This document shows positions 4,736 through 32,053 of a stretch of DNA of 32,566 bases, piece after piece; position 1 is the stretch's first letter; each line of letters begins with the position of its first letter. The notes beneath the pieces were generated by a model, which worked only from the letters and a program-made list of their open reading frames with translations, made no database searches and had not been told where the DNA came from. The DNA comes from Nanobdellota archaeon (GTDB lineage Archaea > Nanobdellota > Nanobdellia > Pacearchaeales > GW2011-AR1). The stretch lies in the NCBI GenBank assembly GCA_022563455.1, contig JADFNI010000005.1, positions 1-32,566 of the forward strand. The letters are read 5' to 3'. Position numbers and translations under genes: made by a program.

Positions 4736-5866
4736 TTAGGCGGCCTTACCTTTTAAGCTTCCATGTCCAGGAATCCTAAAGTTATAAACTTCGGTATAAT
4801 GGTTCGATACTTTTCTAGCTAACTTGGCGATATCGCTTTTGCCTTGCTTGAATTTTCTTAGTTCTTTTAATGTTTTATTAGGATTACTATTAAAGGGGAT
4901 TTGGTATTGGTTGATCATTATTGCAGATAATATATCATCAAGAGCTTGATAAACTCTTTTTGGTGCATCACCAATTTCTTCATAAAAAGACTTCGCATGT
5001 CCTAGTGTAAATGGCACTAGGGAATGTCCAACATGTTTTATTGCTCCTGGAAGTGATCTTGCGAGTTCTGCAGCTGGAGGAAATCTATCCGGATACATTT
5101 CGACCAAGATTTCAGCAACACTATATGAATCATCTGTTAAAGTGACTAAAGAGCCTATTTCAAGAGCTTCAGGGGTTTCTTTTAAGATTTCTTCTATGGA
5201 TTTTTTTCTTTGAAGCCGTGTTGCAATAAAACTAAAATCATTCAACCAGTCATTTCTCTGACCCTTAGAATACCAAGCTCTCTCTTCATCAATCTCACTT
5301 CTGGATAGGCTAGTAGAAGTTCTTTCATTGTGTTCATGATCCAACCCATGTTGTTTCCAGTCTTGGAGATTTGTCCATCTTTGTCTTACTCCTCCAAAAC
5401 TAAAATCCTTCAACCAACCTTCATGGACACCTTTAGAATACCAAGATCTTTCCTGATCATTATTACTTTGTGTTAAACTGGTAGAACTCACTTCGTTGTA
5501 TTTATTGTCTAAACCATGTTGTTTCCAGTCTTGGAGGTTCTGCCAGGGGGTTTTTCTACTTCCCCCTATAAAACTAAAATCCTTCAACCAACCCTTGTCG
5601 TTACCCTTAGAATACCAAGCTCTCTCTTCATCAATTTCACTTTTGGCTAAACAATCAGATATTTTTTCATATCCATTATCTAATCCGTGTTGTTTCCAGT
5701 CTTGGAGGTTTGTCCATCGTCCTCTGGAACTAGTAAAACCAAATTTCTTTAACCAACCATTGCCATTTCCCTTAATATGCCAGGATCTTTCTTCTTTATC
5801 GTTACTCCTCCTTAAACTTGTAGGGTTTCTCTTATCATATCCGTTGTCTAATCCGATTGGGTTGTT
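4736..5866 (-). pseudogene. Repeat protein (about 55-aa RSWYSKGxxxGWLKDFSF...RWTNLQDWKQHGLD repeats), 5'-truncated
   Basis: The ORF track starts at an internal TTG (5587), but the frame stays open to 5866, adding NNPIGLDNGYDKRNPTSLRRSNDKEERSWHIKGNGNGWLKKFGFTSSRGRWTNLQDWKQHGLDNGYEKISDCLAKSEIDEERAWYSKGNDKGW with no ATG/GTG/TTG. At 5867-5869 it runs into TAG inside an upstream-type element. Confidence 0.65.
5342..5720 (-). repeat. In-frame tandem DNA repeats (period about 170 bp) within the repeat-protein gene
   Basis: TGTTGTTTCCAGTCTTGGAG (plus strand) occurs three times, roughly 170 bp apart. Confidence 0.85.
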
Positions 5867-6106: not shown

Positions 6107-6217
6107 TTTTTCTTACCATGTTGTTTTAAGAAACTCTTACCCGCTTCGCTTATTTTAAAATACTTTTCAACCAATGGTGGTTGATAGTTTTATATAGATA
6201 ATTAGCTAATTAATTTT

Positions 6218-7432
6218 ATGTTCGATAAAAAAGTAGGTCGCGGACAACCTTCATGCTTTTCTCGCAAGGCTCGAAAGAGGGGTATTAGTGCAGTTGTTGC
6301 GACAGTATTGATTATTTTGATTACGGTTTCTGCGGTTGCGATTATTTGGGTTGCGATTATTCCGATGATTAGGGATAATTTAGAAATAGGGACGGTGTGT
6401 CTCGAGGCTGATGTTATAGTTGATTCGAGTTCTGGGTATACTTGTTACGATGCTGAGAAAAAAATTTTGGCAGTTCGTGTTAAGAAGGGTCCGAATGAAG
6501 TAGATATTGCTGAGATTGAGTTGCTTTTAGCCTCGGGTGGGACTTCTAGTAAAATGAGTATGCCCTTTGATCTTGGCATTAACGAAGGTAAAATTTTTTA
6601 TTTTCCTGTTGATGAGAATATCGACGAGGTGAGCATTGCTCCGGTTATTCAGATTGGTAACAGTGAGAGGACTTGCGATGTTACAACGAGGGTTAGTTTG
6701 GCTAGTTTGAAGAATTGTAGTTTGAGTTCTGTTGATGCTAGATCTTGTTTAGCTTGGTTCAATGAAGGGCAAGGTGAAGACGGTCTTTATTGGATTGATC
6801 CTGATGGAGGTGGAGGAGAAGATATATTCCAAGTTTATTGTGATATGACTACTGATGATGGTGGATGGACAGTTGTTGCTGCTGCAAATATTGAAATTAA
6901 TTCTTGGTATCCAGATTTAAGTTCAACAGAAGTTCCAACAACTATCCCTACAGACGAAACTTATTCTAGGATTTATACTTGGCCAAAATATACCGAATAC
7001 ATGACTAGGACAATTTATAGCGATCATTTTGATGGAACCACGACTGATAGAACGGCGGGCCCAAAAGATACGGGAATTTATGGAGAAGTCGAATGCAACA
7101 TAATTGATTTTTATATAGATAACGCTAATTATCAAAATGGGAAATGTACTGATGCAATGGTTGGAAGTTGGACAGATTGTAATCCAAATCCTAATTATGA
7201 TGGTTATGATTGGTTTGGGACATATTGTAATACATACTATTTTTTTGGACAACACGATTTAATGGGACATGTTGTTTCAAGTGATATTTATCGTTTGAAC
7301 GGTTCGTCTTCAAGATGGATTTCAATAGATGGGTGTGGGACTGGATGGGCAAATAATGCTTGCAGAGAAGGAAAAGATTCTTATACAAAACAAGATCAAC
7401 TTTCTCAGAAATTGGTTTTAATGGTAAGATAA
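6218..7432 (+). CDS. Archaeal type IV pilin-like N-terminus fused to fibrinogen-like C-terminal domain
   Basis: KRGISAVVATVLIILITVSAVAIIWVAIIPMI (class III signal/pilin helix), then SCLAWFNEGQGEDGLYWIDPDGGGGEDIFQVYCDMTTDDGGWTVVAAANIE (FReD signature GLYWIDP...VYCDM...GGWTVV). Confidence 0.8.
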   Translation: MFDKKVGRGQPSCFSRKARKRGISAVVATVLIILITVSAVAIIWVAIIPMIRDNLEIGTVCLEADVIVDSSSGYTCYDAEKKILAVRVKKGPNEVDIAEIELLLASGGTSSKMSMPFDLGINEGKIFYFPVDENIDEVSIAPVIQIGNSERTCDVTTRVSLASLKNCSLSSVDARSCLAWFNEGQGEDGLYWIDPDGGGGEDIFQVYCDMTTDDGGWTVVAAANIEINSWYPDLSSTEVPTTIPTDETYSRIYTWPKYTEYMTRTIYSDHFDGTTTDRTAGPKDTGIYGEVECNIIDFYIDNANYQNGKCTDAMVGSWTDCNPNPNYDGYDWFGTYCNTYYFFGQHDLMGHVVSSDIYRLNGSSSRWISIDGCGTGWANNACREGKDSYTKQDQLSQKLVLMVR

Positions 7433-8232: not shown

Positions 8233-10779
8233 TTATTTTGTTCGGCAAGTAATCCCATCATTAACCATACTTCCTGTAGCAGGTTGGGGTAGTTCTCCCC
8301 TCCATGAACTGGAACCCGGCACTAGATTTCGGCTTCCATCAGTAAAATTACAATAAGGGTTTATATTAATATCACATAAAGTTCTATCATAAATAGCTTT
8401 TAAATCTAAATCTGCCTGATTAAAAAACCCGTCATGATTAAAATCCACACCCCCATAATTTCTACCCATACTGTAATCTGCATAATAACGCTGCCCAGGG
8501 ATGATATCTACACAATAATAACATGAAGATAAATCTGTAATCTCAGTGAACTCGCAAAATCCTCCGATACATATATCCTCAGAACAATCATTATAATCCT
8601 CACAGTCTGAGTCTATACTACATTCAAAACTCCTACAAGTATTATCCCACCAACAAGTTTCATTATTTTCTTCATCACAGTCACTATGAACCACACATTC
8701 AACATACCTTTCATTATAACAAACTTCTCCTGAAGGGTTTCCAGAACATACGTTTCCAGTATTACATTCAGGTTCACAAAATCCTGCATTACAAACTCGT
8801 CCATAACTATATGCTGGAGTAAATTCACCTACATTAATAGAAACCTTACAATCACTATCAACAACGCAAGTTTCCCCAGGACACGTTTGCCCATTACATG
8901 TATTATAATAAGAATCAACACTTGTAACATTAGGTGCAATAATGCAAAAATTAAAAGGTATACAATCAGGGTCATCCGGTTCAAAGATTACATCAATATC
9001 TATATCATGACTTTTGAAAAGTTTAATGTCATCATAATTATTATTAATATAATTTGTTCCAACAAAGGATATATTTGAGCTATCATAAAATTCTATGCCT
9101 ATTAATCCTGTAGAATTAATTAATATATCTCTAAATAAAATATTTTGACATCCACTACAAACTAACCCTCCAATTTCTCCAGTTATTTCAAGATCTTTTT
9201 CATCTACAAGATATAAATATTCATTCCCGTCCACCAGATTATTCTTCCAACTATTTTGTTTATAACAATCTTTATTATCACAATATGGAGAATTTCCACT
9301 AATTCCAGTAATTAATCTACCATATTCAAATACGAAATTAAATCTTTCATTATTGCATAAGATATTATCTTCAACTATATTTTCTCTTTCATGGTTCGTA
9401 GGCTTGGTTTTAAATTTAATAGCCAATTCGTTATCAAATATGATATTTCCTTTTATTATAGATCCTTTTCCAGGGCCTATTTCCATTGCACTTTTTAATC
9501 CATACATAGTATTATTAATAATTGTATTTCCAAGAACTGTGGCCCTTCCACCATTTGATATTCCAACTCCATAACCAGTATTACTAAATATATAATTTTC
9601 AATAACAGTTAAATATCCGGCTTCATCATCATAGATTCCAATAAAAGCAAAATCATAGATAACATTTTTAAAAATTACTACCCTGCTAGTTCCCTGATTC
9701 CCCTTAATACCCTCACGAACATCATGAAGAATATTATTTTTTATCTCTCCATAAGTTAAATGCCCATGAATATTTATTCCTGTATGTACATCATAGATCT
9801 CACAGTTTTCAATTAAGGGGTTTTTTGCATTGCTAAATAGCCCTATACCATTTGTTCTTGGTCCAATAAATCCAAAGTACCCATAATTTGGATTAGAAAC
9901 TCCATTAGAATAAATTTTATTACCTCTACAATTTAAACTAACGTTTTCTGCATTTATTTTTATTGCATATTGATCCTTAGTGTTTAAGTTACATACAAAA
10001 TCAGTATTAAGATTTATATCAACGTTTGGCTCAGTTATAGTCATCTCACAAACTACTGGTACACAGTTTCCAGCAGCATTACAATATCCATTATTACATG
10101 AGGCTCCAAGTGAACAAGTAATATCCTCAATAGTAAAACTCTCCAGCCAATTTCCATCCCAAGGAATTGCTTTTTGTGCACATATATTTGGATCTCGTTG
10201 AATTGTTAATGGAGTAATTGATCCTGCTATAGGCTTAATTGGAACATATCCACATGATTTTACAACCTCATTATTAATAGGATCAATAGTATTTTCTCCA
10301 GTTGAACCTCCTCCAGTTCCTATATTTGACGAATCTTCTTTAGGAATAATTTTCGCAATATCTTCTATATCCTTATTTTCATAAGCAAAAACTATACTTA
10401 CACTTTCTGGCTTCCCATATTCACTCAAATTAAAATGATAAACTTTCTTTTCATTTTCGGATGGAATTTCTAAAACTCTCTTTGTAATTGAATTCTCTTC
10501 AAAAGTAAATATAAAATCTATTGCATCTGGAATTTTGTCCCCATATTGTTCAACACTAATTTGAATAGTCATTTTCCCAGTTTCTTGATTCCAAATAGTG
10601 TATCCCTCCAGATTCTTAATATCTGTCTTTATTTCAACAGATGAAATTGTGTAAACATCTGATGCGGTATCCATAATCTCCATCAAAACAATAGCAACAC
10701 TAATAATCATCACAAGTATAATTAGCACCGTAGCAGCAGCCAAAGATATCCACTCTTTTTTATAAATATGCATTATCAA
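8233..10779 (-). CDS. Large surface protein: pilin-like N-helix, beta-helix (NosD-like) repeats, Cys-rich repeats and a dockerin/EF-hand-like segment
   Basis: N-terminal EWISLAAATVLIILVMIISVAIVLMEIMD; repeats of NPLIENCEIYDVHTGINIHGHLTYGEIKNNILHDV type; CSIDSDCEDYNDCSEDICIGGFCEF; GGVDFNHDGFFNQADLDLKAIYD. Confidence 0.75.
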   Translation of the reverse strand: MIMHIYKKEWISLAAATVLIILVMIISVAIVLMEIMDTASDVYTISSVEIKTDIKNLEGYTIWNQETGKMTIQISVEQYGDKIPDAIDFIFTFEENSITKRVLEIPSENEKKVYHFNLSEYGKPESVSIVFAYENKDIEDIAKIIPKEDSSNIGTGGGSTGENTIDPINNEVVKSCGYVPIKPIAGSITPLTIQRDPNICAQKAIPWDGNWLESFTIEDITCSLGASCNNGYCNAAGNCVPVVCEMTITEPNVDINLNTDFVCNLNTKDQYAIKINAENVSLNCRGNKIYSNGVSNPNYGYFGFIGPRTNGIGLFSNAKNPLIENCEIYDVHTGINIHGHLTYGEIKNNILHDVREGIKGNQGTSRVVIFKNVIYDFAFIGIYDDEAGYLTVIENYIFSNTGYGVGISNGGRATVLGNTIINNTMYGLKSAMEIGPGKGSIIKGNIIFDNELAIKFKTKPTNHERENIVEDNILCNNERFNFVFEYGRLITGISGNSPYCDNKDCYKQNSWKNNLVDGNEYLYLVDEKDLEITGEIGGLVCSGCQNILFRDILINSTGLIGIEFYDSSNISFVGTNYINNNYDDIKLFKSHDIDIDVIFEPDDPDCIPFNFCIIAPNVTSVDSYYNTCNGQTCPGETCVVDSDCKVSINVGEFTPAYSYGRVCNAGFCEPECNTGNVCSGNPSGEVCYNERYVECVVHSDCDEENNETCWWDNTCRSFECSIDSDCEDYNDCSEDICIGGFCEFTEITDLSSCYYCVDIIPGQRYYADYSMGRNYGGVDFNHDGFFNQADLDLKAIYDRTLCDININPYCNFTDGSRNLVPGSSSWRGELPQPATGSMVNDGITCRTK

Positions 10780-17353: not shown

Positions 17354-18523
17354 ATGAATAAATTTATAATTGGATTTATTATGTTTGTTGTATTTGTGGT
17401 AGCAAATTTATTAGTTCTTATTTATGACCCTTTTGAACTGTCTAAGAAGGATGTTGGAACTTCAACAAGAGAAGTTATTGAAAATTCTTCTCAAGAGATT
17501 AAAGTGAAGGTTCCAAATGAGAAAGTTAATGAAAGTACTTCTGTAGTTGAAGAACCTGATGAGGTCCCGATTATTTTTGAAGAAGAACTTAGTGATGCTT
17601 CATTTAATGGATGCTTGGAGTTGATACCAGGCCATAATATCCAGGAGGCAAATAGGGCTAATATAATTATAATTGGGATGGGGATAGAGAAATTAGGTGG
17701 TATTCCGCCCCTAGAAATTCTAAAATCGATTTCAGAGCATATTATAGATTTTGATGGAGATAATTATGGCTTATTTAATGTTACACCATTTAAAGAGAAT
17801 AAAGATAAATTTAATTTATGGTATGTAAGCGAAATACCTCCGCTTGAGAACTGTGGAGGCCCCCATAGTTATGGATGTAGCAGTCCTCCCCTAAACGTAA
17901 GGCTTGAATGTGAATTACCAAATCAATATTTAATTTTCGTACAAAATTCAGTATTTACAGCTAATGGAGTTCATTCTCAACCTTCCGGACTTGATATTCC
18001 AATCGAACCTAGTGAGGTGACTCTTCCTGTGCCAATTCAACTATCTGAAGAAGGCTTACAGGAAGTTGAAGGAAATAAATTATTATTCTTTGAACATATA
18101 ATTGAGGGATCTAAAATATCCGTTTCTGAGCATCCTTCTAAGGTTTTTGTTCATGAGTTTGGTCATGCATTTGGAGATCTAGCGGATGAACGTCCATTGG
18201 TACGAACCAATTCAGGATCTGAACCTGAACAGTTAAATTGCTGGGGGAAAGATATTAGTGAAGAAACTTGTATGGAGGACAGTCCTTGGAGTCACCTAAT
18301 AGGAAATGGTTGTGGAGAAAATGGCGTAATTGATTGCACTTATTCAGATCCTAACTATAATGTTGAAATTGGATGTTTTGAAGGATGTGCTAAATGGGCT
18401 ACAGGTACTTTTAATCCTACAAGAAGATCTATAATGTTTGGTTCTTCTTATGAACCTTATAAGTTTGGGTTGTGGAATGAGGAGTTATTATCCATTGAAA
18501 TAGAGAAATTTAGTGGAGTTTAA
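17354..18523 (+). CDS. Secreted metallopeptidase, M64 (IgA-peptidase)-like
   Basis: N-terminal TM/signal; SKVFVHEFGHAFGDLADE (HExxHxxxxxxD) and TRRSIMFGSSYEPYKFGLWNE. Confidence 0.65.
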   Translation: MNKFIIGFIMFVVFVVANLLVLIYDPFELSKKDVGTSTREVIENSSQEIKVKVPNEKVNESTSVVEEPDEVPIIFEEELSDASFNGCLELIPGHNIQEANRANIIIIGMGIEKLGGIPPLEILKSISEHIIDFDGDNYGLFNVTPFKENKDKFNLWYVSEIPPLENCGGPHSYGCSSPPLNVRLECELPNQYLIFVQNSVFTANGVHSQPSGLDIPIEPSEVTLPVPIQLSEEGLQEVEGNKLLFFEHIIEGSKISVSEHPSKVFVHEFGHAFGDLADERPLVRTNSGSEPEQLNCWGKDISEETCMEDSPWSHLIGNGCGENGVIDCTYSDPNYNVEIGCFEGCAKWATGTFNPTRRSIMFGSSYEPYKFGLWNEELLSIEIEKFSGV

Positions 18524-23102: not shown

Positions 23103-23121
23103 AACGTCCTAACAGGGCGTT
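23103..23121 (+). repeat. Hairpin of the dispersed intergenic family
   Basis: AACGTCC-TAACA-GGGCGTT, a 7-bp stem (one G-T pair) 12 nt after the purA stop. Confidence 0.75.
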
Positions 23122-23188
23122 GGATAATTTGGAGTGGTGGAATAAATTATTTAGAAAGATTTATATAGAATGTAAGAATAATCTTACT

Positions 23189-23458
23189 ATGGCAAATATT
23201 GGTATTACGAGGCTTAGTTCAAAGGGGCAGGTGGTAATTCCTGCTTGGATGAGGAAGAATTTTAATGAAGGAGATAAAATAGTGATAATTGAAAATGGGG
23301 ATCAATTAATTTTAAAGAAGGCAACAGACTTTGATAAGAATATTGAAGAGGACTTAGAATTTGCAAAAAGAACTGAAGAGGCTTATAAGAGAATAGAAAA
23401 CGGGAATTTTATTAGTCTTGATTCTGAAAGCTTATTTGAAGAAATGGAGAAATGGTAG
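23189..23458 (+). CDS. SpoVT/AbrB-type antitoxin
   Basis: MANIGITRLSSKGQVVIPAWMRKNFNEGDKIVIIENGDQLILKK. Confidence 0.85.
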   Translation: MANIGITRLSSKGQVVIPAWMRKNFNEGDKIVIIENGDQLILKKATDFDKNIEEDLEFAKRTEEAYKRIENGNFISLDSESLFEEMEKW

Positions 23459-23700
23459 AGATTCGATTTGATAAAAAATTTAAAACTATTTTTTCAAAGA
23501 TTAAAGACAATCTCCAAAGAGAAAGAATTATTAAACAAATTAAGAAAATATCTGAGAATCCTGAAGTCGGAAAGCCTATGAGAAATGTAAGGAAAGGATC
23601 TAGGGAATTATACATTAAACCTTTTAGATTATCTTATCATTTTTTAAAAGAAAAAAATTTGATCTATATCTTGGATTTGTATCATAAGAAGTTGCAATAA
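23452..23700 (+). CDS. RelE/ParE-family toxin
   Basis: MVEIRFDKKFKTIFSKIKDNLQRERIIKQIKKISENPEVGKPMRNVRKGSRELYIKPFRLSYHF...ILDLYHKK; overlaps the AbrB gene by 7 nt. Confidence 0.85.
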   Translation: MVEIRFDKKFKTIFSKIKDNLQRERIIKQIKKISENPEVGKPMRNVRKGSRELYIKPFRLSYHFLKEKNLIYILDLYHKKLQ

Positions 23701-23825: not shown

Positions 23826-24764
23826 ATGTATCTAGAGAAAAGAAAGTATTATGGTAAAACGAAGTATTGGCTTTCTCATTCATTTAGGGAGGGTGGAAAA
23901 ATACACAAAATTCGTAAGTTTCTTGGCACTGACTTATCTAAAAAGGTCTTAGAAGATCGAATGAAAAAGGCAGAGAAATTAATTCTAGATGAGATTGAAA
24001 AATATAAGATAATTAAGGATCCTTTACATGATAAAATCTCAAAGGAAGAAATTGAATTTATTAAGAGACTTGAGAAAGAGGCTAACTTGAAAGTTATTCA
24101 TTTATCTGAATCTGATTGGAAAAAATTTTCTGAAGTTTTTAGTTATAATACAAATGCTATTGAAGGAAGTGAGCTTACATTAAAGGAAACAGAAAATGTG
24201 ATAGAGCATGGTGTTTGGCCTGTTGAGAAGTCAAAACAAGATATTGCAGAAGCTTTGGGAGTGGATGAAGCTATAACTTTTATAAGAAAGACAAAAGAAA
24301 ATATTTCTTTAGATTTGATAAAAGAAATTCATAGAATTGTTTTTAAAAATTCTAAAGATTTTGCTGGGGAATTTAGAAAAAGGGGTGAAGAGGTAGTTAT
24401 TAGAACCGGTACTGGAATAATTGTTCATGAAGGAGCTCCTTCTTCAAGAGTTGTAACACTACTCAAGGAATTAATTATGTGGTATAATAAATATAAAAAT
24501 GAGTATCCTGGTATTCTTTTAGCAGCAGTTGTGCATAATCAGTTTGAGAATATTCATCCTTTTGTAGATGGTAATGGGAGGGTAGGTAGGATATTATTAA
24601 ATAATATCTTGTTGAAAAATAATCTTCCACCCTTGAATATAGATTTGAAGAATCAAAGAGAATATTATTCTACCTTGCAAGTCTATGAAAATGAAGGAAA
24701 TATAAGGCCAACAATTGAGCTTATGTTGAAAGAATATAAAGATTTAAAGAAAATCATGAATTAA
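23826..24764 (+). CDS. Fic-domain protein
   Basis: HPFVDGNGRVGRILLNNILL (HPFxxGNGRxxR) and N-terminal YNTNAIEGSELTLKETENVI (alpha-inh/N-terminal Fic region). Confidence 0.9.
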   Translation: MYLEKRKYYGKTKYWLSHSFREGGKIHKIRKFLGTDLSKKVLEDRMKKAEKLILDEIEKYKIIKDPLHDKISKEEIEFIKRLEKEANLKVIHLSESDWKKFSEVFSYNTNAIEGSELTLKETENVIEHGVWPVEKSKQDIAEALGVDEAITFIRKTKENISLDLIKEIHRIVFKNSKDFAGEFRKRGEEVVIRTGTGIIVHEGAPSSRVVTLLKELIMWYNKYKNEYPGILLAAVVHNQFENIHPFVDGNGRVGRILLNNILLKNNLPPLNIDLKNQREYYSTLQVYENEGNIRPTIELMLKEYKDLKKIMN

Positions 24765-24955: not shown

Positions 24956-25783
24956 TTAATATAAATTAATTATTCCTTGGATATCGCCTGCATTTAAGGA
25001 TCGTTTTTTGGTTTCTCCAAAGGAGGCAAAGGCATACATTGTTTCTTCAGTGCAAGTAGTGTCTGGATGAGCTAGTCCAAAACTATGACCCATTTCGTGT
25101 TGAACTATATTTTCAAAATCCATTGCGTTAGGATCTCCAACATGACTCCAACTAAAATCTACGTCATCGTAAACTTGATCCCATTCAACTAATTCTCTTC
25201 CTCCTGGAGGACCACTGAAGATTCCCCAAACAAATGTTACTGCAATTGCTCCAGGGCTATTTATATCTGCAAATGCAATTTCGTTTTTTCCGTTTAAGTT
25301 TCCTATGTTAGCTAAATCTACAGTTCCATTAATTTCATTTCCAAAAATATCTTGATTTCCTGATTCAATTTCCCATTCATCTATAGCATAAAAAACTGTA
25401 TCTCGGATTTGGGCTTCATTTAGACTTGCATTGTTAGTTGAATCTAAAATATAAGGTTCATTTGATTTCCATTTTGCTCCTTTTGATATGAATGAATAAC
25501 ATGTTGTTTTGCCGCTGTTTGTATTGCCACCTGCCCATGGAGGTCTTGCATGTTCTTTTTTATAATCAATAATTGCATATCCTTCTATAACTCTTCCATT
25601 TTCTATTGTGTTTTCTAATTTGAATATTCCAGGAGCCACTTTAACTGCTGTTGTTGGTATATTAATAACAGCATCATCATTAGAGGGTATTATTGATGCT
25701 GATTCAAAACTAGGAATGGATGCTATTACTACGCTTAAAGTAAGTAAAAACACCAATGCTAATGCAAAACTTTCTTTTTTCAT
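24956..25783 (-). CDS. Secreted matrixin-like (metzincin) metalloprotease
   Basis: Signal-like N-terminus; NIVQHEMGHSFGLAHPDTTCTEETMYAFASFGETKKRSLNAGDIQGI (HExGHxxGxxH plus Met-turn). Confidence 0.8.
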   Translation of the reverse strand: MKKESFALALVFLLTLSVVIASIPSFESASIIPSNDDAVINIPTTAVKVAPGIFKLENTIENGRVIEGYAIIDYKKEHARPPWAGGNTNSGKTTCYSFISKGAKWKSNEPYILDSTNNASLNEAQIRDTVFYAIDEWEIESGNQDIFGNEINGTVDLANIGNLNGKNEIAFADINSPGAIAVTFVWGIFSGPPGGRELVEWDQVYDDVDFSWSHVGDPNAMDFENIVQHEMGHSFGLAHPDTTCTEETMYAFASFGETKKRSLNAGDIQGIINLY

Positions 25784-29033: not shown

Positions 29034-29918
29034 TTAGGAGTATTTCTTATATTCATCTAAATACCTTCTAAAAAACCATTGAACAAAGATATTATCGTCA
29101 TTTTTTAAATTTGACCTTTCTAAGGCATTATAATATGCATTTCTTTTAGTATAGGGGATGTCTAATAATGGAAAGTCATTGTCCTTTAATACAAAATTCA
29201 TCATAAGCCTTGAGATTCTCCCATTACCATCTCCAAAGGGATGAATAGTAACAAATTTTAAATGGACTAGTGCAGACAATTCCACTGGGTGAATAGTTTT
29301 TTTATTCTTAACGTACCAATCGAAGAATTCTCTCAGTAAGGTATCTAGCTCTAGGTGCATTGGAGGCTTAAATTTTGATCTAGCAATAGCTATATCAAAA
29401 TCTCTTACTTTTCCAGCTATGTCTGGTTTAGTTTCTTTTAGAAGATCCTTATGCCATTTGAGTACTGGTTTAAAGCTGAGGTTTTTTTTATAATCCATCA
29501 TTTCAAAAAATATTTTTTCATGAGCTTCTGCTTCCTTTACATCTCCTAAGGGTTTAGATGAGGGAGTTATATTGTCTTCCAATAAATTGGCAGTTTCTTT
29601 AAGTGTTAATGTAGATCCTTCAATTCTCTGAGTGTTATACGTAAATTTAATCGCAAAATTTTCTTTAGATTTCTCTTTTGCAGAGCTAGGCATCTTTTTG
29701 TATTCAACATTAAAATTTTTCTTTATTAGATCTATGCTTTTTAAAAATTTTTCTGCATAAAATTCTTGCATAAAATTCTTTTTCTTTTCTTCAATATCTT
29801 TTGGGACCAGACCTCCCAAGTAAGTTCTTTTCTTCTTTATCTTCTTCCCATCCCTATAACTGTGGGCTAGATAAAAGTATTTTTTCTCTCCCTTAATCTG
29901 TTTTTCTATTTCTACCAT
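29034..29918 (-). CDS. Fic-domain protein
   Basis: HPFGDGNGRISRLMMNFVL and YNTQRIEGSTLTLKETANLL; N-terminal region resembles the 23826 Fic protein (YFLAHSYRDGKKIKKKRTYLG / YWLSHSFREGGKIHKIRKFLG). Confidence 0.9.
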   Translation of the reverse strand: MVEIEKQIKGEKKYFYLAHSYRDGKKIKKKRTYLGGLVPKDIEEKKKNFMQEFYAEKFLKSIDLIKKNFNVEYKKMPSSAKEKSKENFAIKFTYNTQRIEGSTLTLKETANLLEDNITPSSKPLGDVKEAEAHEKIFFEMMDYKKNLSFKPVLKWHKDLLKETKPDIAGKVRDFDIAIARSKFKPPMHLELDTLLREFFDWYVKNKKTIHPVELSALVHLKFVTIHPFGDGNGRISRLMMNFVLKDNDFPLLDIPYTKRNAYYNALERSNLKNDDNIFVQWFFRRYLDEYKKYS

Positions 29919-30142: not shown

Positions 30143-32053
30143 ATGAATAAAAGAGGAATTTCAGCAGTAGTTGCTACAGTTTTGATTATATTAATTACTA
30201 TCTCTTCCATTTCAATAGTATGGTTAATGATTATCCCAATAATTAAAGAAAATTTAGAGTTTAGTTCTCTTGAAAGAGGAGTTGTCATTGTGACATCTGG
30301 AGGATATACTGTTTATGATCCAGAAAGAAAAATTGCAGCGGTAAAAGTAAAGATGGAAGAAGATACTGTTGAAATTCCTTTTGTAGAAGTTATTTTTATG
30401 GTGGATGGAAATTCAATTAAATTTGTAAGAGATTTTAATCTTGAGATTAATGAAGATAAATTATTTTATTTCATCTTGAACAAAAAACCAGAAAGTGTTA
30501 GTGTTGCTCCTATTTTTCGAATTGGAAATAAAGAGAAAGTTGGTTCAATTTATAATAGTGTTCAATTGAAGAGCGGGGACTTAACTCCATCAGACATTGA
30601 ACTTTATGATGGGCTTGTTAGTTATTGGAGATTTGAAGGAGATGCGCTGGATACTGCAGGGAATAATAATGGAATATTAAACGGAGATGATGGAGAATTA
30701 ATTATAAACAGGGGAGCAGAAACCGGGACGAACGAGGGTTGGTGGGGCTTTGATGGAGCTACAAATGCTAATAAATATTCTGGAATTTATAGTTTTTATC
30801 AAGAAGGACCTAAGTTTCTTTTAAGTTCTGAATTTATCCCATTAGATTTAAACAAAGAATATCATTTGGAAGGGTGGTTTAAATCTTATGGAGTTGGAAA
30901 TAGCAGAATTTATTATGGTTTTGAGGCTTATGATATAAACAAGGTTTGGATTGAGTCTGTTGATGTAAATGTTGTTCCTAATTCAGAAACGACATTCTCT
31001 GAGGATTGTTCATCAGCAGACACATCATTTAGAATATTGGACGGATCTAATTGGGTTACAACTTATCATGCAAGAATCATATTTGATATTGATGATTCAG
31101 GTAATTTTGCTGACTTACCAAATAGAAATCAGAGCAACAGGCTTGGAATCTCAACAATTCCATCAATAATTACAGATTCTGGATTAGGTTATTGGGAGAT
31201 CACCCTTGGAGGGGGTCAAACAATTGGTAAAGATTGTGTATCTGGAGAAACAATAAGACAACATATTTCTGGTTCAGCACGAATTTATACTGCTGCCAGC
31301 TCTAAATTTGTTCCTCCGGCATGGACCTCTTATTCTGGAAATGTTAATGGAATAGCCCTAACTGGAATTCCTGCTAATAATTGGTGGGCTGGTACGAAAT
31401 ATTTTAAGATTATGGTTTTGGTGAATTATAAACAAACAGCAGATTATAAAATTTATGTTGATGATATATCTCTTAAAACTACTCCTCCCACTTATACTGG
31501 TCCTAAATGGATTGGAGGAATAAGTGGGCAGTCTGTGAGTTTTGATGGTGATAACGACTATATTGATTTTGGAAATAATATTGGGATTGTTGATACTGGA
31601 ACGACTGTTTCATTCTGGATGAATGCGAAGAGTTCTGAAAACAAAGATGGAATTGTATCTAAATCTGTTGGAGGGGCCATGAATGATTTTGTATATGTTG
31701 TTGGTTTTGCACAAGCAGGCTCAGCGAAAAAAATAGGATTGCATACGAGTAATTTTACTAATCAATATAATGATAACTGTTTGAGCACTAATGATATAGC
31801 ATATAATGAATGGATCCATGTTGTTATGACTTGGAATAAAAGTTATTGTGAACTTTATATAAATGGTGTTTTGGATATTTCAGAATTTACTGAGATTGGT
31901 ATGAATACTACTGTTTCTTATCCTACACAAATAGGAATTGGATTTGGAAATAATGGGAATCTTTTCGAGGGGGATGTTGATGAGGTAATGATATTTAATC
32001 GTATTATATCTGGTGGTGAAGTTGGAGAAATTTATAATTCACAATTTATTTAA
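30143..32053 (+). CDS. Archaeal type IV pilin-like N-terminus fused to LamG/concanavalin-like domain(s)
   Basis: MNKRGISAVVATVLIILITISSISIVWLMIIPIIKENL; GLVSYWRFEGDALDTAGNNNGIL...GQSVSFDGDNDYIDFGNNIGIVDTGTTVSFWMNAKS...EWIHVVMTWNKSYCELYINGVL...GDVDEVMIFNRIIS. Confidence 0.85.
   Translation: MNKRGISAVVATVLIILITISSISIVWLMIIPIIKENLEFSSLERGVVIVTSGGYTVYDPERKIAAVKVKMEEDTVEIPFVEVIFMVDGNSIKFVRDFNLEINEDKLFYFILNKKPESVSVAPIFRIGNKEKVGSIYNSVQLKSGDLTPSDIELYDGLVSYWRFEGDALDTAGNNNGILNGDDGELIINRGAETGTNEGWWGFDGATNANKYSGIYSFYQEGPKFLLSSEFIPLDLNKEYHLEGWFKSYGVGNSRIYYGFEAYDINKVWIESVDVNVVPNSETTFSEDCSSADTSFRILDGSNWVTTYHARIIFDIDDSGNFADLPNRNQSNRLGISTIPSIITDSGLGYWEITLGGGQTIGKDCVSGETIRQHISGSARIYTAASSKFVPPAWTSYSGNVNGIALTGIPANNWWAGTKYFKIMVLVNYKQTADYKIYVDDISLKTTPPTYTGPKWIGGISGQSVSFDGDNDYIDFGNNIGIVDTGTTVSFWMNAKSSENKDGIVSKSVGGAMNDFVYVVGFAQAGSAKKIGLHTSNFTNQYNDNCLSTNDIAYNEWIHVVMTWNKSYCELYINGVLDISEFTEIGMNTTVSYPTQIGIGFGNNGNLFEGDVDEVMIFNRIISGGEVGEIYNSQFI

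Follow-up and report, generated by a model that had tools for sequence, protein, structure and literature searches.

The 404-aa protein encoded at positions 6218..7432 (+) of the window, the complete 32,566-nucleotide stretch of Nanobdellota DNA that was analysed here, consists of a complete operon-type pilin to which a fibrinogen-related domain (FReD) is joined at the point where the pilin would naturally end. It belongs to a large family of archaeal modular pilins in which a common pilin base carries diverse C-terminal domains (cargos). It is likely that this protein functions as a modular minor type IV pilin that would be cleaved by a peptidase, enter the filament through its helix, display the FReD outward and bind a ligand.

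The gene begins with a prepilin leader of 22 aa that ends in KRG (6218..6283, +) and was delineated from the sequence and by alignment with the MNKRG- leaders of relatives; cleavage is expected immediately after KRG, before I23. A TATA-like box (TTTATATA; 6189..6196, +) is located 25-26 bp before the ATG at 6218, which supports this start and therefore a leader of 22 aa, compared to about 5 aa in the relatives. The gene probably has its own promoter and a leaderless mRNA. Most modular pilin genes have a similar AT-rich TATA-like box at the same, leaderless distance, whereas the pilin gene of the pilus operon (locus L040) has a Shine-Dalgarno-like sequence (AAAGGAGG) instead. The class III-type signal and pilin helix quoted in the earlier note (KRGISAVVATVLIILITVSAVAIIW) is indeed present, the KRG leader being followed by a hydrophobic helix of about 20 residues. 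This pilin N-terminus scores slightly below the curated cut-off of TIGR02537 (18.8 bits vs 20) and also below that of Pilin_N. The leader is of the archaeal type and, with respect to the bacterial N-methylation motif (IPR012902/PF07963), the 404-aa protein shows no PF07963 match.

The mature part of the protein starts with a full-length pilin module (6284..6718, +), a helix up to approximately residue 63 followed by a beta-sandwich. This module is 43% identical to the short pilin of the operon (L040:2800-3411, 204 aa), and the homology spans the whole module, not the signal helix alone; C61, C76, C153 and C167 align with all four cysteines of the operon pilin. The FReD starts shortly past ...SLKNC, which corresponds to the C-termini of the operon pilins (...LLEC, ...LLAC, ...LRAC). 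In the tree of the modules, the operon pilins form one clade (support 99/94) and the module of the 404-aa protein is its sister (83/86). The type IV machinery, the absence of which had been named as a result that would speak against a pilin, is encoded in the genome: in the operon, the pilin gene is directly followed by genes for a small protein resembling class III proteins, the ATPase (T2SSE, 8e-32) and two platform proteins (T2SSF), and a prepilin peptidase A24 (PF01478, 4.6e-10) is encoded at G000:C66. The genome thus holds the predicted machinery to process and assemble the pilin-FReD protein. In 14 of the 16 congeneric genomes, a short module copy precedes the ATPase gene on the same strand at a distance of no more than 1.8 kb, and one of the remaining two has a broken contig. 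In the AlphaFold models, the pilin part folds into a long helix and a subsequent beta-sandwich, with pLDDT of about 90 in a sibling (L047) and about 55-85 in the 404-aa protein. Foldseek searches retrieved only weak matches, to Ig/FnIII sandwiches and to an archaellum filament, the latter being the best match of the model of the 404-aa protein (4.7e-3), and a search of the PDB with the pilin-module profile yielded nothing significant.

The fibrinogen-like segment (GLYWIDPDG...FQVYCDMTTDDGGWTVV) is present as previously quoted and is far beyond chance: residues 176-220 match NF040941 (fibrinogen-like YCDxxxxGGGW; NCBIfam) with an E-value of 1.2e-15 (57.2 bits, cut-off 30). Residues 175-221 further match Pfam Fibrinogen_C (PF00147; 1.6e-7, 31.8 bits, cut-off 22) and COLFI (4.6e-8, above the curated cut-off). 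This stretch corresponds to the N-terminal (A) subdomain of the FReD (YCDMTTDDGGWT; 6740..6880, +), in which C177 and C208 are the conserved FReD cysteines. The closest solved structures by sequence are FIBCD1 (9e-6 in phmmer with the 404-aa protein) and fibrinogen beta chains, over approximately the same stretch only. The earlier proposal that a FReD occupies residues 175-404 thus holds directly for the N-terminal subdomain and is inferred for the remainder, since the HMM matches, which overall cover about residues 165-236, support only the 47 residues of the YCDM..GGW subdomain. A lack of any HMM match, which had been named as a result that would speak against a FReD, is therefore not what was observed, although the match is limited to this N-terminal subdomain.

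The C-terminal lobe of the putative FReD (residues 222-404, 183 residues; 6881..7429, +) is an orphan sequence. No credible relative was found among phages, plasmids (no match at all) and the 186 genomes of the family, where only two marginal matches (E-value about 0.005) were obtained, and its score with the full-domain HMM is no better than that of shuffled sequence. Of the AlphaFold model suggested previously as a check, the pilin-like helix and sandwich came out as described above, but the FReD lobe is below pLDDT 50 in both the 404-aa protein and the sibling L047, so that no claim of a FReD fold rests on these models. These features, together with the small portion of the Pfam profile that is matched (47 of 221 positions; in the alignment of the 404-aa protein alone, profile positions 3-47), could be taken to mean that a mobile YCDM-GGW motif (residues 175-221) is joined to a lobe of an unrelated fold, in which case the protein would have no true FReD. 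We regard this as improbable, given several features of the entire region. The last residues of the lobe, LVLMVR, form the hydrophobic strand plus Arg with which prokaryotic FReDs typically terminate; a hydrophobic-Arg/Lys strand forms the exact C-terminus in 59 of the 65 prokaryotic family members as well as in the 404-aa protein, and the terminal Arg is invariant in all 21 aligned domains. We take this strand to resemble the one that closes animal FReDs. Solved animal FReDs are also matched by the family profile that has the 404-aa protein as its head (tenascin-R, 8e-13), covering positions 5-215 of 220 in the case of FGL1. Together with the length of about 230 residues, which is right for a FReD, the terminal strand and the profile match point to a single intact domain over residues 175-404.

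The pilin module is widespread. Its residues 20-167 yield nine further matches in the same genome, which correspond to eight further genes, and the module profile matches 120 of the 186 relatives (E-value at most 1e-8). Within the genus, at least 38 long module copies are found in 9 of the 16 congeneric genomes, in open frames of 297 to 1632 aa. Three further members of the family that were missed by the earlier note are encoded in the window itself: a divergent 848-aa modular pilin with a right-handed beta-helix cargo (8233..10779, -; module profile 9.9e-48, Beta_helix 1.2e-12), a 636-aa modular pilin with a C-terminal LamG cargo (30143..32053, +; Laminin_G_3 2.7e-19), and a tandem module copy that runs off the end of the contig (32122..32566, +), with module DNA about 97% identical to that of the preceding gene. 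Three module copies of this genome (C48, C49 and the end of C72) are cut by contig ends, a pattern that assembly breaks at near-identical modules would produce. A Pfam census of cargos over 50 scanned proteins identified NosD/beta-helix in 10-11, Laminin_G_3 in 10, DUF285 in 2, GLUG in 2 and Fibrinogen_C in 2 at 1e-5 (seven by NF040941 at 1e-3), along with singletons that include peptidase C25, a GH123 N-domain, FG-GAP and NHL; one modular pilin has a weak GH43-like match beside LamG. Several siblings also match TafC, a fimbrial family; this match is confined to the LamG part, and the papers found under that name are unrelated. The pilin base may display enzymes as well. Among modular pilins with enzyme-like ends (L093, L108 and L086, in genomes G005, G120 and G014), we observed a long helical region that appears epimerase-like by eye, a GH123 N-domain (probably in L108) and a GH43-like propeller. 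Another modular pilin with a LamG-like end (L041; G000:C24:1-6019) adjoins small genes that, by eye, include a HerA/FtsK-like ATPase, and its contig has the appearance of a mobile element or a virus.

Proteins containing FReDs are rare and were detected in 6 of the 186 relatives and in 8 of 377 in the phylum sample, non-pilin proteins included in the latter. The same fusion, which had been suggested as worth searching for in other DPANN genomes, was found in further Pacearchaeota and in one MAG each of Nanoarchaeota and Aenigmatarchaeota. Nanoarchaeota WY1.bin114 encodes four FReD genes, of which two are complete with class III N-termini and two are cut by contig ends; other DPANN FReDs are located within large secreted proteins. 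In a homologous pilin-FReD gene (L014, G066:C8), an in-frame TAG stands in place of a Trp codon that the relatives have in the signal helix, which points to either a pseudogene or a sequencing error. Two proteins of Patescibacteria (L167:2305-3597 and L191:2383-3597) combine a bacterial prepilin N-terminus (PF07963 above the cut-off in one and just below it in the other) with a FReD, a fusion that apparently is independent of the archaeal one and convergent. Most of the bacterial FReD proteins among the matches listed look like ordinary secreted proteins. The same fibrinogen-like segment is also encoded by the cyanophages S-RIM14, S-ShM2 and S-SSM2 and by viral contigs (together H1-H12 and L212-L214), possibly as part of receptor-binding proteins; these matches cover essentially only the YCD segment.

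If the FReD had been acquired once, its carriers would be expected to form a clade of modules. Such a clade is rejected (p-AU 8.5e-5), as is a single clade of LamG carriers (p-AU 5e-114); these tests refer to groups named by cargo in a tree with long branches. Exchange within the FReD is suggested by three paralogues in the sister species Candidatus Pacearchaeota RS_3_14 (G004), which mostly are 70-94% identical at the DNA level from the ATG to GGGWT and past that point have nothing alignable. Over the domain, the lobe of one of these (L047) shows 46-54% identity to proteins of Saprospiraceae, Gracilibacteria, Campbellbacteria and Thioploca (best 3.7e-49), and the lobes of its two paralogues resemble those of a Nanoarchaeota MAG. 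As judged from the sequences, lobe exchange would explain this pattern better than fast divergence. We tentatively suggest, as a scenario somewhat short of an even chance, that Pacearchaea possess a swappable surface display in which a constant pilin and promoter receive grafted and exchanged binding domains, with recombination boundaries where the pilin ends and, within the FReD, directly past GGWT, and in which C-terminal ligand lobes, some of them closest to bacterial ones, are swapped to change partner recognition. A conserved N-terminal part followed by a hypervariable C-terminal part is also what a diversity-generating retroelement would produce, and such elements are known in DPANN. This origin of the lobe variation is, nevertheless, extremely unlikely because no reverse transcriptase (PF00078) was found in the genome studied here (87% complete) or in G001 and G004; moreover, the lobes are wholly different sequences, some closest to bacterial FReDs, rather than variants at adenine positions.

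Under the preferred interpretation of the 404-aa protein as a modular minor pilin, its processing, filament location, ligand and partner are steps that we infer as follows. The prepilin peptidase would remove the leader after KRG, and the hydrophobic helix would enter the filament, at the tip or in low abundance given the bulk of the cargo. The FReD would then be displayed outward and bind a ligand on a partner cell, a matrix or a particle, probably a glycan or an acetylated sugar, the type of ligand bound by ficolins and intelectins. Since each modular gene would have its own promoter, the cell could vary what the pilus presents by changing which cargos it expresses on the constant pilin, and evolutionary swapping of cargos could have the same effect. 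Location at the tip, binding and host attachment would be reasonable by analogy with the PilB and PilC pilins (PMC8179133, PMC9934059).

Alternatively, the pilin N-terminus might only anchor the protein in the membrane, so that a surface protein with a class III signal, of the bindosome type, would show the FReD without joining a pilus. Class III signals do occur on non-pilus archaeal proteins, the NCBIfam bindosome model BasC shows a weak N-terminal match (0.081), the modular genes are located outside the pilus operon with promoters of their own, and the cargos are bulky, reaching more than 1400 aa. We nevertheless consider this option rather unlikely, as the homology to operon pilins extends over the whole pilin head, including the cysteines and the C-terminal strand. 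With regard to the ligand, it is quite conceivable, if not the expected case, that it is environmental, such as a polysaccharide, particles or the cell's own or biofilm matrix, rather than a host cell: the LamG, beta-helix and enzyme-like cargos of the siblings (GH43-like, GH123 N-domain, peptidase C25) suggest polymer binding or processing, and most bacterial FReDs among the matches listed look like ordinary secreted proteins. Conversely, cultivated DPANN archaea are contact-dependent ectosymbionts (PMC11291902), which favors binding to a partner. The source archaeon itself is tiny and probably host-dependent.

The closest known counterparts are the modular pilins PilB and PilC of Streptococcus sanguinis, in which a vWA or a ConA-like lectin domain, respectively, is grafted on the pilin C-terminus and probably shown at the tip (Raynaud 2021, PMC8179133; PMC9934059). 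Both systems join a small pilin module to a non-pilus binding domain at the C-terminus, and the LamG/ConA type of cargo of PilC is also found on siblings in the Pacearchaeota family. However, the S. sanguinis proteins are prepilins of the bacterial IPR012902 type whose genes lie in the pilus operon, whereas those described here are archaeal class III pilins, with FReD cargo and a common base shared by many single genes scattered over each genome. The 404-aa protein combines a pilin module with an extra domain that is not particular to pili and would work in the manner of a modular pilin, but it does not belong to the bacterial modular-pilin family, as it has no IPR012902-type motif. The InterPro survey in PMC8179133 covers bacteria, and the word archaea is absent from its main text. 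The Tad/Kil pilus tips of Myxococcus, where paralogous minor pilins with exchangeable terminal domains customise the filament tip (PMC12075869), likewise involve paralogous pilins that differ in the terminal domain, but these form heterotrimeric tip complexes encoded in clusters, in contrast to the single archaeal genes. The NF040941 proteins of Myxococcota, Bdellovibrionota and Saprospiraceae share the domain and the terminal strand with the archaeal FReDs, and some archaeal lobes are closest to such proteins (3.7e-49, 1.9e-55), although among the matches listed these are mostly secreted or lipoprotein-type, not pilins. The animal FReDs (FIBCD1, ficolins, tenascin, intelectins) share the YCDM-GGW of the A subdomain, the two conserved cysteines and the Arg-ended strand, but their C-terminal ligand lobe is not alignable with the archaeal one. 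For DPANN archaea, PMC11291902 and PMC7414124 describe type IV pilus loci that are conserved among Pacearchaeota and related groups, and LamG proteins of Undinarchaeota that are proposed as adhesins, two themes shared with the present family; the passages on these themes contain no description of a pilin-cargo fusion family or a FReD. In the open-licence literature, we found no paper that combines fibrinogen, DPANN and pilin, and no account of an archaeal pilin-cargo family or of a FReD on a pilin.

The modular pilins are concrete candidates for the recognition proteins by which DPANN archaea choose and hold their partners, with one pilin base and dozens of interchangeable cargos, FReDs included. 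They also extend to archaea the concept of modular pilins, described from bacteria. The FReD is best known as an animal immune lectin, and this type of domain is joined to a pilus subunit in both archaea and bacteria. Patescibacteria, the other major ultrasmall group, are very small and often episymbiotic cells, and the FReD-on-pilin fusion in these bacteria suggests convergent use.

Several other genes in the window deserve mention. Just upstream of the modular pilin gene, in divergent orientation, is a gene for a 283-aa protein (4736..5587, -) with repeats of a 111-nt unit at 5261, 5429 and 5603 and no Pfam match. Two apparently exported metalloproteases (17354..18523 and 24956..25783; Peptidase_M64, 1.3e-10, and Peptidase_M10/matrixin, 8e-10) are notable neighbours in a reduced genome. 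Finally, in the regions 23120-23700, 23826-24764 and 29034-29918, reading by eye suggested adjacent small genes for an AbrB-type antitoxin and a RelE-like toxin, as well as a Fic-like motif (HPFxDGNGR) in two proteins.
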